A DNA stretch of 32,238 bases from Bacteroidota bacterium (GTDB taxonomy: Bacteria > Bacteroidota > Rhodothermia > Rhodothermales > Bin80): NCBI GenBank assembly GCA_028873925.1, contig JAPPNA010000032.1:1-32238 (forward strand), given 5' to 3'. Each line of letters begins with the position of its first letter. Position 1 is the first letter of the stretch. The position numbers and the translations under genes are program-made. Shown one piece after another: positions 13,376 through 18,603 of this stretch. The notes beneath the pieces were generated by a model that made no database searches, was not told the origin of the DNA, and worked only from the letters and a program-made list of their open reading frames with translations.

Positions 13376-13732
13376 ATGCCGAAAATTACAGTATCAGGAC
13401 ATGGCACGTTCGAGGTTGCCGAGGGCCAGCGGCTGGTCAATGCGCTGGAGGAAAACGGGGTTGACATCGGGCACCGCTGCGGCGGTTATGCGCGTTGCAC
13501 GACCTGCCGCCTGACCATTAGTGAAGGTGAGCCCGGCGTGATAACGCAGGCCGAATACACTAAGCTTGTTGACCGCAACCTGCTAGGCGAGGTCCGGCTG
13601 GCCTGCCAGATACTCGTGGAATCAGACATGACCGTGGAGCCGCTGATGCGCGTTAGCACCATGGGCTGGAGCGATCCGGGCCCGCCGCCGGAAGAAACAG
13701 TCACGCCGGAGCCCGAGTGGCAGCAATTCTAG
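13376..13732 (+). CDS. [2Fe-2S] ferredoxin
   Basis: This 118-aa protein is of the plant/mammal-type ferredoxin fold. The cluster ligands are Cys35, Cys41, Cys44 (CGGYARCTTC) and Cys77 (RLACQIL). The N-terminal ferredoxin ends after about 95 residues, followed by a short Pro/Glu-rich tail. It transfers single electrons to a partner not identified in the window. Its heme-related role is not indicated, and the nearest heme genes are 5 kb away. The start ATG is preceded by GGGAA and an A/T-rich stretch. There is no downstream gene on the same strand. Confidence 0.93.
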   Translation: MPKITVSGHGTFEVAEGQRLVNALEENGVDIGHRCGGYARCTTCRLTISEGEPGVITQAEYTKLVDRNLLGEVRLACQILVESDMTVEPLMRVSTMGWSDPGPPPEETVTPEPEWQQF

Positions 13733-14123
13733 CTCATACGCCCGCATCTTGGTTGCCGGGGGTAGGCGGGGGTGCGATGGTCGGAGCTGGGATTCTTCCT
13801 GGATGGGGCTAAAGTCCAATCCACCGGATTATGCTGGCGCTGCTTAACCGATCTTGGATGTCGCAGGATCCGTCCGCGGGTGATTTGAGTCCCGGAGTAA
13901 ATGAGGCCGGGGGCCTGACGGACGATCCTGCCGCTGTTGCCGTACTGAACAGCCTTCGGTTGCAGACAGTGCGGATTCAGGGCAACCCACTACCCGGCGA
14001 GGCAGACCTGTCTGGAGCATACCACAAATCAGAATGGCGTGTAAGGCGGAGCCGCTTGACTTCCATGTTCGTCCGCATGTAGAACCGTAGGGAACTGGAA
14101 TAGACCCACAAATAGAACCGCAA
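13733..14123. other. Convergent gap of 391 bases, no convincing gene
   Basis: The gap lies between the ferredoxin stop and the poly-HTH stop. One 83-codon plus-strand frame (13831-14082) is open, but it has no ribosome binding site and no recognisable pattern. Importantly, neither strand encodes remnants of the DDE domain that would follow the HTH part in an IS630 transposase. Confidence 0.4.
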
Positions 14124-15770
14124 TTAGCCGGAATTCTTCAGGTCCTTCTGGAGATCACGCAGATCAATGCTATGCCGCTTCAGCCAACTGGATGCAGTAG
14201 TTGTTGCGACTCCCTCCGCGTCAGCCAGACTCTGAAGGGTCCACCTCCGGCCATTCGGCGGCGGTTCCGTCTTTACCCGGTTGATTGCGCCTGCGATTTT
14301 TTCGGCACCATAGGTAACTCTGCGAGAGCTGGGCTGCGGGTCTAAACACGCGATACCCTTCGCCAGATATAGGTTGCGCCACCGATACACAGTTTCCACA
14401 TGCGCGCCTACATGTTCGGCTACAGCCTGAATGGATAGCCCCTCCGCTAAGGCCAACAGGATGCGGGCCCGTGACACAATTCTTGGCGAATCACGTCTTA
14501 CCTGCAGGATTGACTGTAGCTGATCACGGTCTGCTGCTGACAGGGCCAGCCTGGCGAGTGAACTCTTGCGTGGCTTATCGCGAAGTCCTGCGATCCCCTC
14601 CTCAATGTAGCGCTTATGCCATGTGAAAACCGTTCCGTAATCTATTCCAAGGTGTCTTGAAACAGCCAGGGCTGACGAATGCTCTGTACAGGCAAGCACG
14701 ATACGGGCGCGCATTACTAATTTCTCTGGGTAACTGTCGGACTGCGCGATCGCCTGGAGCTGATCACGATCTGCTGCTGACAGGATTAGCCCGGCGAATA
14801 TATTCTTGCGCGGCCTGTCGTACAGTCCTGCGATCCCCTCCTTCATGTAGCGCGCGCGCCACTTCCTCACGATTGAGAGAGCTACTCCAAGGTGTCTTGA
14901 AACAGCCGGGTTTGACGGATACTCTGTACAGGTAAGCACGATACGGGCGCGCATTACAACTCTCTTTGGGTGACTGTCGGAATGCGCGATCGCCTGCAGC
15001 TGATCACGGTCTGCGGCCGATAGTATCAACGGCTTTTTGGGAATGCGTGTAGGCTTGGAGTAGAGTCCTTCAATCCCGCGCTCCAAATAAAGCTTCCGCC
15101 ATTTTCTGACAGTCAGTGGATGGACACCAAGACGTTTTACCACAGCCTTTTCGCTCAATTCCTCGGCTAAGGCAAGCACGATACGGGCGCGCTTCACGAG
15201 ATTCTGCTGTTGGTCTGTGGACCGCACTATTTCCAGCAGCTGATCACGGTCTGCGGCCGATAGGACCAACGGCTTTTGGGGAATGCCTTTTGGCTTGGAG
15301 TAGAGTCTTTCAATCCCGTGCTCTATATAAAGCTTCCGCCATAAGTTCGTATTGTTTTCGCTTACGCCAAGGCGCCTGGATATATCCCGACTTGATTCAC
15401 CATCCGCATAGGCAAGCACGATACGGGCGCGCATGATAGTCCACGCATGGTGATTATCGGATTGCAGAAGTCGTTGCAGTTGATCACGGTCTGCTTCCGA
15501 CAGGACCAGCAGCTTCTTGGGAATGCCGCCTGATTGGGTGCAGAGTCTTTCAATCCCGCGCTCCAAATAACGCTTCCGCCATACGTACACAGTGCTGTTG
15601 TGAACGCCAAGGCGCTGGGCTATGTCTTGAGCTGGCTCACCATCCGCACAGGCAAGCACAATGCGGACGCGCAGGATTATATGGTCACGCCCGGTCTGCA
15701 GCAATTGTTGCAGCTGATCACGGTCTGCTGCCGATAGAACCAGCGGCTTGTTTCGAATTCCTGCCGGCAT
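14124..15770 (-). CDS. Protein of six tandem IS630-type helix-turn-helix units
   Basis: The 548-aa protein (ATG 15770, MPAGIRNKPLVLS) consists of six units starting at residues 12, 90, 170, 250, 330 and 410. Each follows the plan LSAADRDQLQ, a variable stretch, RARIVLA, a first helix, R(L)GV, a recognition helix and W(R)K(R)Y...GI.GL. That is the homeodomain-like N-terminal fold of IS630/Tc1-mariner transposases. A seventh, different HTH follows at about 500-540 (RRWTLQSLADAEGV, the second HTH of IS630 proteins). No DDE catalytic domain is present, and the protein ends 23 residues after that HTH. The frame is open upstream to 15890, overlapping the HerA stop, and ATG 15848 is an alternative start. 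It lies 46 bases after the HerA-type ATPase gene in a same-strand run. It probably binds a long composite DNA site. The activity is unknown. Confidence 0.85.
   Translation of the reverse strand: MPAGIRNKPLVLSAADRDQLQQLLQTGRDHIILRVRIVLACADGEPAQDIAQRLGVHNSTVYVWRKRYLERGIERLCTQSGGIPKKLLVLSEADRDQLQRLLQSDNHHAWTIMRARIVLAYADGESSRDISRRLGVSENNTNLWRKLYIEHGIERLYSKPKGIPQKPLVLSAADRDQLLEIVRSTDQQQNLVKRARIVLALAEELSEKAVVKRLGVHPLTVRKWRKLYLERGIEGLYSKPTRIPKKPLILSAADRDQLQAIAHSDSHPKRVVMRARIVLTCTEYPSNPAVSRHLGVALSIVRKWRARYMKEGIAGLYDRPRKNIFAGLILSAADRDQLQAIAQSDSYPEKLVMRARIVLACTEHSSALAVSRHLGIDYGTVFTWHKRYIEEGIAGLRDKPRKSSLARLALSAADRDQLQSILQVRRDSPRIVSRARILLALAEGLSIQAVAEHVGAHVETVYRWRNLYLAKGIACLDPQPSSRRVTYGAEKIAGAINRVKTEPPPNGRRWTLQSLADAEGVATTTASSWLKRHSIDLRDLQKDLKNSG
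14304..15737 (-). repeat. Six ~240-bp tandem coding repeats
   Basis: The units of the poly-HTH gene repeat at the DNA level. A TGATCACGGTCTGC-type block occurs at 14521, 14761, 15001, 15241, 15481 and 15715, giving spacings of 240, 240, 240, 240 and 234 bases. A second block, AGCACGATACGGGCGCGC, recurs in the three units around 14695, 14935 and 15175 and again near 15415, also 240 apart. The last (15655) and first (14460) copies are more diverged. The pattern indicates in-frame duplication followed by divergence, possibly with gene conversion. Confidence 0.95.
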
Positions 15771-15816
15771 CCTGGTGTACTCTGGTGATGGATATGGATA
15801 CCCGTACGCTGCTTTC

Positions 15817-17466
15817 TTAGCCCTGTACAAGATCGTACGCCTGCTCATCAAGCGTCTGATTGCCCCGCATAATCCGGAAGAACTGATCATCGTAATTCCG
15901 CGTTCGGATCACAATCGGCATGGGGATGGCGTGCCCTAGGATCAGTGCCTGTTGTTTGCCATCAATGGATGCCAGGATATTACGCAAGCCGGAGGCGGTG
16001 CTTTCTCCGGCCAACGTGGCTCCGATGTCCTTTTCGTCATTGAGCTGACAGACGAACTTAGTGCCGATCTGGCTAAGCACCTCCTCATCAATGGCACTCG
16101 GCCGCTGGTCTACAATCAGCAGCGACACGAAGAACTTCCGCATTTCGCGCGCGATCTTGCCGAACGGGGTCTCCCGGGCAATGCCGGGTGCCAGGAATTT
16201 GTGCGCCTCCTCAATGGTGATGATAAGCTGGCGGGGCTGTTGCGATTTGTCCCGCTTGCGGCGGTATTCAGTGGATTTCTGCTCGTAACGGGCCCGAATG
16301 CGGCGCGTAAAGACATTGGCCACCAGCAGATAGGCCGTCAGTTCGGTGTAGTTGCCGAATTCAAGCACAATGTGCCTACCGCTGTCAATGGTCTCCAGGA
16401 AATCCTCAAGTACATCGCGCTCGGACTCGGTGCGCGGAGTGGTCTTGAAGAACCTATACTCTTTCAGCCGCGAAAGCCTCCGGTGCAGGGCCTTGAGTGA
16501 CTGCTCATGGGCACCGATAGACTCAGCCAGTTCTCCCATCTCGTCTGCGCGTGCCTTTAGCAGTTCGGTGAGCCAACCGGTCCCGTATCGGCGTTTAAGC
16601 GCGTAGCAGGAATCCACCGCCGTGGAAGTCAGATTGAATGTGCTGGTGAGGGGCAGAATGTCGTTCGGCTCAATCTGATCGGCGTACAGGTACACCGTGC
16701 CATCCGGCCGGTGCCCGGACTGCCGTGCGTGTTCGGGATCCAATGAATAAATGGATACCCGGCTGTCAAAAAGCTCCTTGAGACCTTTCAGGAAGCCGGT
16801 CTTACCTTCATGATGTACTGTTGAGGCGTACTCCGAATGCATGTCAAAGATTAAGTTAACCGCTGCGTCGTTGAATATGGTGCCGCACAGCAGCAGCCGA
16901 GTCAGAAAAGTCTTGCCGGTGCCGGTCTTGCCAAAGACGGCATTGGACCGCTCCACCAACTTCCTGAGATTGACACACAGCGGAATATCGTCCATGCCGC
17001 GCGGGCTGCCTATCTGAAAGTAGGTCTGCCCGTCCTCATGGGATTCGGCCCCGAAGACGCGCGCTACATCGTCACGGTCAGCCCGTGCGACCGGCGAGAA
17101 GTGTGATGGAATCGTCTTGACGCCGTGGGCCTCCTGGTCAGACAGCTCAGGATGGTCCCGGTTGTCCATCATGAGCATGGGGCGGACATCCACGGTAGTA
17201 TAGGCACCCATACCCCGAACTACCTGCCGAAGTAAATGCTCCTCAGCCGCCGGCGGATACAGTCGAATGCTCTCGTTGGTGGCATCAATAGTGACATCGG
17301 TGATGAGTGAGAAAAAATCGAAATGCGTACCCTGCACCACCACGAATGTGCCCGCGGTAATGTCTTCGGCATCTATATGCTCTGCGAGTTTCATGGCCAC
17401 CCCCTTGCTCAGGGAACCATGGGTTACCACACCAAGCTTATCCGGACGATCGTTGGGGTGCTGCAT
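15817..17466 (-). CDS. herA: HerA-type hexameric DNA translocase ATPase
   Basis: The 549-aa protein begins with a HAS-barrel-like domain (RPDKLGVVTHGSLSKGVAM, FVVVQG, to about residue 120). A RecA/FtsK-like ATPase core follows: Walker A GKTGTGKT (179-186), Walker B LIITIEEAH (414-422) and an arginine-finger-like DQRPS near 453-457. The family forms hexamers that pump DNA, with the nuclease NurA in archaeal repair or with varied nucleases in bacterial defense. No nurA, SIR2 or DUF4297 partner is adjacent. Instead, rlmN ends 9 bases upstream and the poly-HTH gene begins 46 bases downstream. The start at ATG 17466 gives the normal HAS-barrel N-terminus. The symbol marks the family, not a proven role. 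Confidence 0.88.
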   Translation of the reverse strand: MQHPNDRPDKLGVVTHGSLSKGVAMKLAEHIDAEDITAGTFVVVQGTHFDFFSLITDVTIDATNESIRLYPPAAEEHLLRQVVRGMGAYTTVDVRPMLMMDNRDHPELSDQEAHGVKTIPSHFSPVARADRDDVARVFGAESHEDGQTYFQIGSPRGMDDIPLCVNLRKLVERSNAVFGKTGTGKTFLTRLLLCGTIFNDAAVNLIFDMHSEYASTVHHEGKTGFLKGLKELFDSRVSIYSLDPEHARQSGHRPDGTVYLYADQIEPNDILPLTSTFNLTSTAVDSCYALKRRYGTGWLTELLKARADEMGELAESIGAHEQSLKALHRRLSRLKEYRFFKTTPRTESERDVLEDFLETIDSGRHIVLEFGNYTELTAYLLVANVFTRRIRARYEQKSTEYRRKRDKSQQPRQLIITIEEAHKFLAPGIARETPFGKIAREMRKFFVSLLIVDQRPSAIDEEVLSQIGTKFVCQLNDEKDIGATLAGESTASGLRNILASIDGKQQALILGHAIPMPIVIRTRNYDDQFFRIMRGNQTLDEQAYDLVQG

Positions 17467-17475
17467 GGGACAGAG

Positions 17476-18603
17476 TTAATCGGCTTGTGGCGCGGATGGC
17501 CGGACAGCCAGCTGCCCGCAGGCCGCATCAATTTCCGCGCCACGACTCCGCCGTACGGTCACGGTAACATCCAGCTCTATGAGTCGCTCAATAAAGGCGT
17601 TGAGCTGTTGGGGGCCGGTCCGGGTGAAGGGCACATCGGCGACCGCGTTGTACATGATCAGGTTTACTCTTGCGTTTACCCGCCGGCACAGGCGGGCCAG
17701 TTGGCGCGCATCCTCAGCAGTGTCATTAAACCCGTCAAACATACAGTACTCAAAAGTTATCCGCTGGCCCGTCGCCCGGCGGTAGTATTCCAGCGCTTCC
17801 ATCAGCGGCGCAAGCAGCGCGTGTTGACTGTGACTGACTGGCATGATGCTGGCCCGCTTGCTATCGGTCGGTGCATGAAGGGAAAAGGCAAGCCTTACCT
17901 GAGGAGTCACATGGGCCAGATCCCGGATGCGACGCGCAATGCCGACCGTGGACACTGTGATTCGTCTCCGGGACAGCCCCAGGCCATCCGGCCGGGTCAG
18001 GATCTGTAGACTCTTCGTGACCGGCTCAAAATTCAGCAGAGGCTCGCCCATGCCCATATATACCACATTGGTGATGCCGCGGCCATACTTTTTCACGGCC
18101 AGTGTATTCATCAGCAGTACCTGGTCGGCAATCTGGCCGCAGGAGAGGTTTTCCTGGAAGCCCATCCGGCCGGTAGCACAAAAGGTGCAACCCATGGCAC
18201 ATCCGACCTGGCTGGAAACGCAGACCGTCAGACGCTTTACACGACCCTGCTCGTCAAAGTCGGGGATCAGGACCGTTTCAACACTGCGTCCGGAGGGCAG
18301 CCGCAGCAATGCCTTTACCGTTGCGTCTGCGGCTGTCTGCATCTGATTCACCGCGAATGTCCCAATGGTGGCCTTGGATGTGAGCGTTTTCCGCAATGGG
18401 AGCGGCAGGTTGGTCATGGCATCAAATGAAGAGATCCCGCTGCGCCCGTACAACCACCGGAATATCTGATCTGCGCGCCAGCGCGGCTGACCCAGGCGGG
18501 TGATCCAGTCCTCCAACCCGTCCGGCCCCAACGACTTTATGTCCAGCAGAGATCGGTCCGCCGCTAAATGATCCGGCTCCATTTTGAAATTGACCGCAGA
18601 CAT
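17476..18603 (-). CDS. rlmN: Dual-specificity RNA methyltransferase RlmN
   Basis: This 375-aa radical SAM enzyme adds the C2 methyl group to A2503 of 23S rRNA and A37 of some tRNAs. The [4Fe-4S]-binding motif is Cys135-x3-Cys139-x2-Cys142 (GCAMGCTFCATG). Cys128 and Cys362 (AACGQL) stand where the two mechanistic cysteines are in the E. coli enzyme. YMGMGEPLLN, RRITVSTVG and LAFSLHAP are further signatures. The N-terminal tRNA/rRNA-binding helices (RWRADQIFRWLY) are present. It heads the minus-strand run rlmN-herA-poly-HTH and is divergent from the small secreted protein gene at 18643. Confidence 0.97.
   Translation of the reverse strand: MSAVNFKMEPDHLAADRSLLDIKSLGPDGLEDWITRLGQPRWRADQIFRWLYGRSGISSFDAMTNLPLPLRKTLTSKATIGTFAVNQMQTAADATVKALLRLPSGRSVETVLIPDFDEQGRVKRLTVCVSSQVGCAMGCTFCATGRMGFQENLSCGQIADQVLLMNTLAVKKYGRGITNVVYMGMGEPLLNFEPVTKSLQILTRPDGLGLSRRRITVSTVGIARRIRDLAHVTPQVRLAFSLHAPTDSKRASIMPVSHSQHALLAPLMEALEYYRRATGQRITFEYCMFDGFNDTAEDARQLARLCRRVNARVNLIMYNAVADVPFTRTGPQQLNAFIERLIELDVTVTVRRSRGAEIDAACGQLAVRPSAPQAD

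Follow-up and report, generated by a model that had tools for sequence, protein, structure and literature searches.

A protein of six tandem IS630-type helix-turn-helix units without a transposase nuclease in the order Rhodothermales

Introduction

When the DNA-binding half of a transposase is found six times over in one chain, with no nuclease behind it, is it a piece of an insertion sequence awaiting decay, or a protein that its host has put to use? This question is raised by a gene in a stretch of 32,238 nucleotides (the window) from a Bacteroidota bacterium of the order Rhodothermales, in which an earlier note, made from the letters of the DNA, had described an array of IS630-type helix-turn-helix (HTH) domains. 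In animals, there are well-documented cases of regulators exapted from the DNA-binding domains of transposases (e.g. PMC10027918). In the literature, we found neither a description of a tandem IS630 HTH array nor a bacterial case of a transposase HTH multiplied into an array. In the characterised element ISY100 (Tc1/mariner/IS630), the N-terminal HTH region by itself shows specific DNA binding, and the inverted repeat is bound weakly by a fragment with the first HTH and tightly by a fragment with two HTHs (PMC2170065).

Results

Architecture of the array protein

The array lies in an open reading frame of 588 codons without a stop (15890-14124, minus strand). The start was chosen at 15770, where the N-terminus MPAGIRNKPLVLS fits those of IS630 proteins (compare MPRGRPLTPLVLS in G001, a relative placed in the same family as the array genome). 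The gene and its parts are:

14124..15770, minus strand: HTH-array gene, 548 aa, pI about 10.2 (open reading frame with Pfam and NCBIfam matches)
15513..15746, minus strand: HTH unit u1 (78 aa), recognition stretch HNSTVYV
15273..15512, minus strand: HTH unit u2 (80 aa), recognition stretch SENNTNL
15033..15272, minus strand: HTH unit u3 (80 aa), recognition stretch HPLTVRK
14793..15032, minus strand: HTH unit u4 (80 aa), recognition stretch ALSIVRK
14553..14792, minus strand: HTH unit u5 (80 aa), recognition stretch DYGTVFT
14313..14552, minus strand: HTH unit u6 (80 aa), recognition stretch HVETVYR
14124..14312, minus strand: IS630 second HTH (HTH2), last 62 residues, by alignment to IS630 proteins

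Six IS630-type HTH units of 78-80 residues follow one another head to tail, u1 being two residues shorter than the others, and u6 runs into the second HTH as it does in IS630. The six units claimed by the earlier note were recovered: six stretches are each matched by Pfam HTH_23, HTH_29, HTH_28 and HTH_32 (HTH_23 E = 5e-65), the NCBIfam IS630 transposase model (NF033545) gives six matches, each time to its N-terminal part only, and the DNA repeats with a spacing of 234/240 bp. The NF033545 matches identify the units as N-terminal HTHs of the IS630 type, and the HMM matches rule out a chance or mechanical open reading frame. The seventh HTH that had been read at the end of the chain proved to be the HTH2 of IS630; this piece of 62 residues, which matched no Pfam family when searched alone, is predicted to be helical and aligns in register with the HTH2 of real IS630 proteins.

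The chain stops at the point where the IS630 DDE domain would start. In agreement with the earlier note, no DDE domain or remnant was found by tblastn on either strand of the window, and the IS630 HMM, run on the whole genome, found no DDE on the array contig. The array protein carries neither a Lys-rich tail nor a ligand domain. The pairwise identity among u1-u6 is 52-78% in DNA and 38-66% in protein, so that the units are neither a product of chance nor near-identical assembly copies, and the core residues L4, W58, Y62 and G66 of the unit are invariant across the array.

Predicted structure

The AlphaFold model of the 548 residues (10 sequences) has a mean pLDDT of 85.9 and a pTM of 0.33. 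Four helices make up the HTH bundle of each unit, which is modelled with confidence (block pLDDT mostly 86-96), and pLDDT falls below 50 in the links at residues 80-84, 161-164, 240-243, 321-323, 400-405 and 479-484. Confident bundles, low-confidence links and the low pTM suggest beads on a flexible string and not a rigid superhelix. A structure search with the whole model gave nothing at E below 0.001 and Z of only about 5-6, as expected for single small helical domains; the weak and expected matches were to DUX4, PAX, Mos1, Tc3, KorA and sigma region 4. The u6-HTH2 part is weakly like the bipartite DNA-binding regions of the paired/Mos1/Tc3 type. Among solved structures searched by sequence, none was relevant.

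Ancestry and precedents

In a tree of 29 HTH units, u1-u6 form one group (support 84/78) that is nested within the group of IS630 first HTHs (97/93), with the sister pairs u1-u2 and u4-u5 as the most recent duplicates. As a single clade inside the IS630 first HTHs, the array was most likely grown by multiplication of one IS630 unit.

The genome of the array also holds related IS630 pieces (on contigs C162 and C117), which are broken or partial. The piece on C162 (L002:3-716) is the closest IS630 relative within this genome, at 39% identity; it is broken by two stops, lies at a contig end, and possibly descends from the founder element. In two other genomes, G026 and G022, multi-copy elements (L095, L096, L104, L105, L107, L108) match the DDE part of the IS630 model only. 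They have an internal TAA stop and the HTH in another frame, with at least six near-identical copies per genome, and look like a two-frame IS630 group.

According to the earlier note, IS630 transposases have one first-HTH unit, then the second HTH and a DDE domain. This does not always hold: in WP_266686931.1 and WP_329163976.1 of Streptomyces and WP_239010633.1 of Rhodococcus, the first-HTH unit is present twice in tandem and is followed by HTH2 and an intact DDE_3. These two-unit transposases are carried on actinobacterial plasmids (L127:145-1494, L128:161-1501 and L129:114-1463). A protein of 179 aa from a Streptomyces plasmid (WP_331737765.1, L126:1495-2034) has two HTH units and no DDE, and lies beside an IS5 transposase.

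A second long array is present in the relative G003 (contig C24, L064:3847-6306). This protein of 819 aa has about seven HTH units, for which Pfam gives six stretches, and its C-terminal tail is Lys-rich. Its units belong to the IS630/HTH_23 class, have long linkers and recur with a period of about 95-100 aa. They form a separate group in the tree, near the HTH domains of Lys-rich proteins, and the separate clades rule out a common origin of the two arrays. The claim that the architecture is undescribed stands as far as the literature on tandem IS630 HTH arrays goes, and is qualified by this separate seven-unit protein. Taken together, the two-unit transposases and the G003 array indicate that multiplication of the unit is recurrent in the IS630-type HTH class.

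Locus and distribution

The surroundings of the array are made up of:

13376..13732, plus strand: 2Fe-2S ferredoxin gene (fdx), convergent neighbour of the array
13733..15816, no strand assigned: segment of 2,084 bp between fdx and herA, missing in the relatives G004 and G006
15817..17466, minus strand: HerA-type ATPase gene (herA), directly upstream of the array
17476..18603, minus strand: rlmN, first gene of a probable rlmN-herA-array run

The genes stand in the order tpi, zinc ribbon, beta-lactamase-like and ferredoxin, the last pointing towards the array, which is followed, on its own strand, by herA and rlmN. In G004 and G006, the same neighbours stand in the same order and the ferredoxin and herA stops overlap by 18 and 4 bp, so that the 2,084-bp segment is a lineage-specific insertion. 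No second copy of it occurs elsewhere in the genome assembly. No long flanking inverted repeat was found, only short imperfect pairs of doubtful meaning. The GC content at third codon positions is 0.57 in the array and 0.65-0.72 in the neighbouring genes, which points to a recent or foreign gene and agrees with an origin from a mobile element. The herA stop precedes the array ATG by 46 bp on the same strand, which makes co-transcription, and hence co-expression, with rlmN-herA plausible from the gene layout. A promoter and terminator scan at the array gave no signals above shuffles.

Searches of 114 genomes of the order Rhodothermales, 245 of the class and 394 of the phylum gave no other six-unit array, and neither did searches of a species-level genome collection, phages, plasmids and viral contigs. 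Distant arrays could have escaped, as the low-threshold search of the phylum scored at most three candidates per genome and the scans of genome collections require near-exact peptide words. Plasmid matches listed at >80% query coverage were rejected, as they cover about 0.7-0.8 kb of the record, with one or two HTH units counted repeatedly. The array is known from one genome only and has no between-species conservation. Nor was the seven-unit type seen in any genome of the order besides G003.

Scaffold constraint and divergence of the recognition helix

After the duplication that gave u4 and u5, replacements in the scaffold were suppressed (pN 0.09 vs pS 0.29, P = 0.008). The pairs u1-u2 and u2-u3 show the same direction more weakly (P about 0.09, not significant alone), and purifying selection on the HTH scaffold is supported by these comparisons of codons.

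Divergence within the unit is greatest in the N-terminal half of the recognition helix (codons 51-57); AlphaFold places the helix after the HTH turn at unit positions 52-70. In this stretch, u1-u2 have 10 replacements over about 17 sites and a dN over the unit-wide dS of 3.2; for u4-u5, the figures are 10.5 over about 16 sites and 5.4. Similarity along the units is patchy, as seen in u1-u3, which means that exchange between units does occur. To allow for it, the baseline was limited to the synonymous sites of codons 43-65, and the pooled P was 7e-4. Since the stretch had first been picked by eye, the observed maximum was also set against neutral simulations (omega = 1), in each of which the highest-scoring window of the whole unit was taken. 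Replacements are densest in the 7-codon window that starts exactly at codon 51; the value of this window was reached in 0/600 runs for each setting with d = 0.35 and in ≤0.5% of runs at d = 0.45, which gives a window-corrected P of under 1/600 to 0.005 for the recognition helix of sister units.

First-HTH units of single-unit IS630 proteins with a scaffold identity of at least 0.75 (13 pairs) served as the control. Their stretch 51-57 is on average 71-90% identical (minimum 43%), vs an average of 14% in the three array pairs with a scaffold identity of 0.75-0.85. The scaffold of u4-u5 is 85% identical and its helix stretch 14%; for u1-u2, the values are 80% and 0%. Divergence of this kind requires either positive selection or repeated swapping of helix segments; swapped-in diverged segments could mimic fast evolution.

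Discussion

We propose, with a probability of about 0.6, that the array is a DNA-binding regulator or DNA organiser used by its host, exapted from the DNA-binding region of an IS630 transposase and amplified into a flexible multi-HTH protein. The DNA-binding half of the transposase would have lost its DDE nuclease or arrived without it, and its 240-bp first-HTH segment would have been duplicated in frame to give six units capped by the second HTH. The product would be a flexible, basic and sequence-specific DNA-binding protein, acting as a regulator or in DNA architecture. Each HTH may read a few base pairs of its own, and the chain as a whole would then contact an extended or multipartite site; six first HTHs with HTH2 on flexible links would, by analogy with ISY100, bind with high avidity. 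We infer from these features that the array binds DNA, probably at a long composite site, and has a regulatory role.

The earlier note had called the protein domesticated and modular. Both terms gain indirect support from the purifying selection on the scaffold and the diversification of the recognition helix, as read from the codons. The diversity of the helices implies that different units read different sequences, and a changing helix on a kept scaffold would be expected of a modular DNA reader and not of a dead remnant. It is possible, though tentative, that the array is a bacterial reader in the full sense, with a common scaffold, helices under diversifying selection and a chain that encodes a long composite DNA sequence; if true, it would parallel multi-finger or TALE-type arrays, with helix-turn-helix units as its modules.

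The array may instead be a non-functional remnant, that is, a truncated IS630 copy with repeats grown by slippage or unequal exchange and decay yet to come. It stays the main rival because there is no between-species conservation of the array, and the occurrence in a single genome, the IS origin, the atypical GC3, the missing DDE and the damaged IS630 pieces in the same genome are in line with it. However, 588 codons have stayed open despite a divergence between units of up to about 48% in DNA, the four core residues are invariant, scaffold replacements were suppressed in u4-u5, and those in the recognition helix cluster beyond the neutral expectation. On balance, we hold a remnant to be unlikely.

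Other truncated transposases act as transposition repressors, and the array could sit on the terminal inverted repeats of IS630 elements and block their transposases. The IS630 ancestry, the retained HTH2 and the related pieces on C162 and C117 would suit such a role, but these pieces are broken or partial, and the recognition helices are diverged among the units as well as from those of IS630 relatives, which is the opposite of keeping one target; we regard repression of transposition as distinctly improbable. Still less probable is a sequence-tolerant nucleoid or architectural protein that gains avidity along DNA from its many HTH units. Its basic charge (pI 10.2), its many flexible predicted DNA-binding units and the Lys-rich tail of the G003 array would agree with this role, but non-specific binding leaves a diversification confined to the recognition helix unexplained. 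An assembly artefact of several joined IS630 copies, considered in the earlier note and conceivable in a draft genome of 185 contigs, several of which carry IS630 pieces (one at a contig end, C162), has hardly any likelihood, given units of one clade that differ by 22-48% in DNA, an exact 240-bp spacing within one open frame, a segment that is present only once in the assembly and flanks on both sides that are syntenic with relatives.

If the proposed working as a host DNA-binding protein holds, the array is a natural experiment in how new DNA specificity arises when a single HTH is repeated and retuned, and engineered DNA readers could possibly be built on it. With IS630 transposases (Tc1/mariner/IS630; NF033545; e.g. 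ISY100), it shares the first HTH, the second HTH and the N-terminal start motif, but it has six first-HTH units instead of one, no DDE and no recognised inverted-repeat ends. The actinobacterial transposases also have the first HTH duplicated head to tail, with a spacing of ~80 aa and HTH2 behind it, but only two units and an intact DDE_3 nuclease. The series of one unit in the usual IS630, two with DDE in actinobacteria, six without DDE and an independent seven in G003 makes the origin of multi-HTH proteins testable. DUX4, PAX and SNAPC4 (multi-homeodomain, paired-domain and Myb-repeat proteins) offer an analogy of working, with several HTHs per chain and weak structural matches only; they are eukaryotic, and no sequence relationship to the array was found.

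The seven-unit protein of G003 resembles the array in its tandem HTHs of the same broad class and the lack of a transposase domain, but it is an independent amplification of another HTH subgroup, with a Lys-rich tail and other neighbours. Its gene lies between PPK2-like and CYTH-CHAD-like genes, named from a reading of their translations, and may have to do with polyphosphate or nucleoid biology. HTHs of this subgroup also occur as single units, fused to Lys-rich coiled tails in two proteins (L010:1036-2166 and L008:1459-2124) and inside an apparent CYTH-HTH-CHAD fusion in another (L015:151-2397), which suggests that Rhodothermales have an HTH family, as yet undescribed, with a link to polyphosphate proteins.
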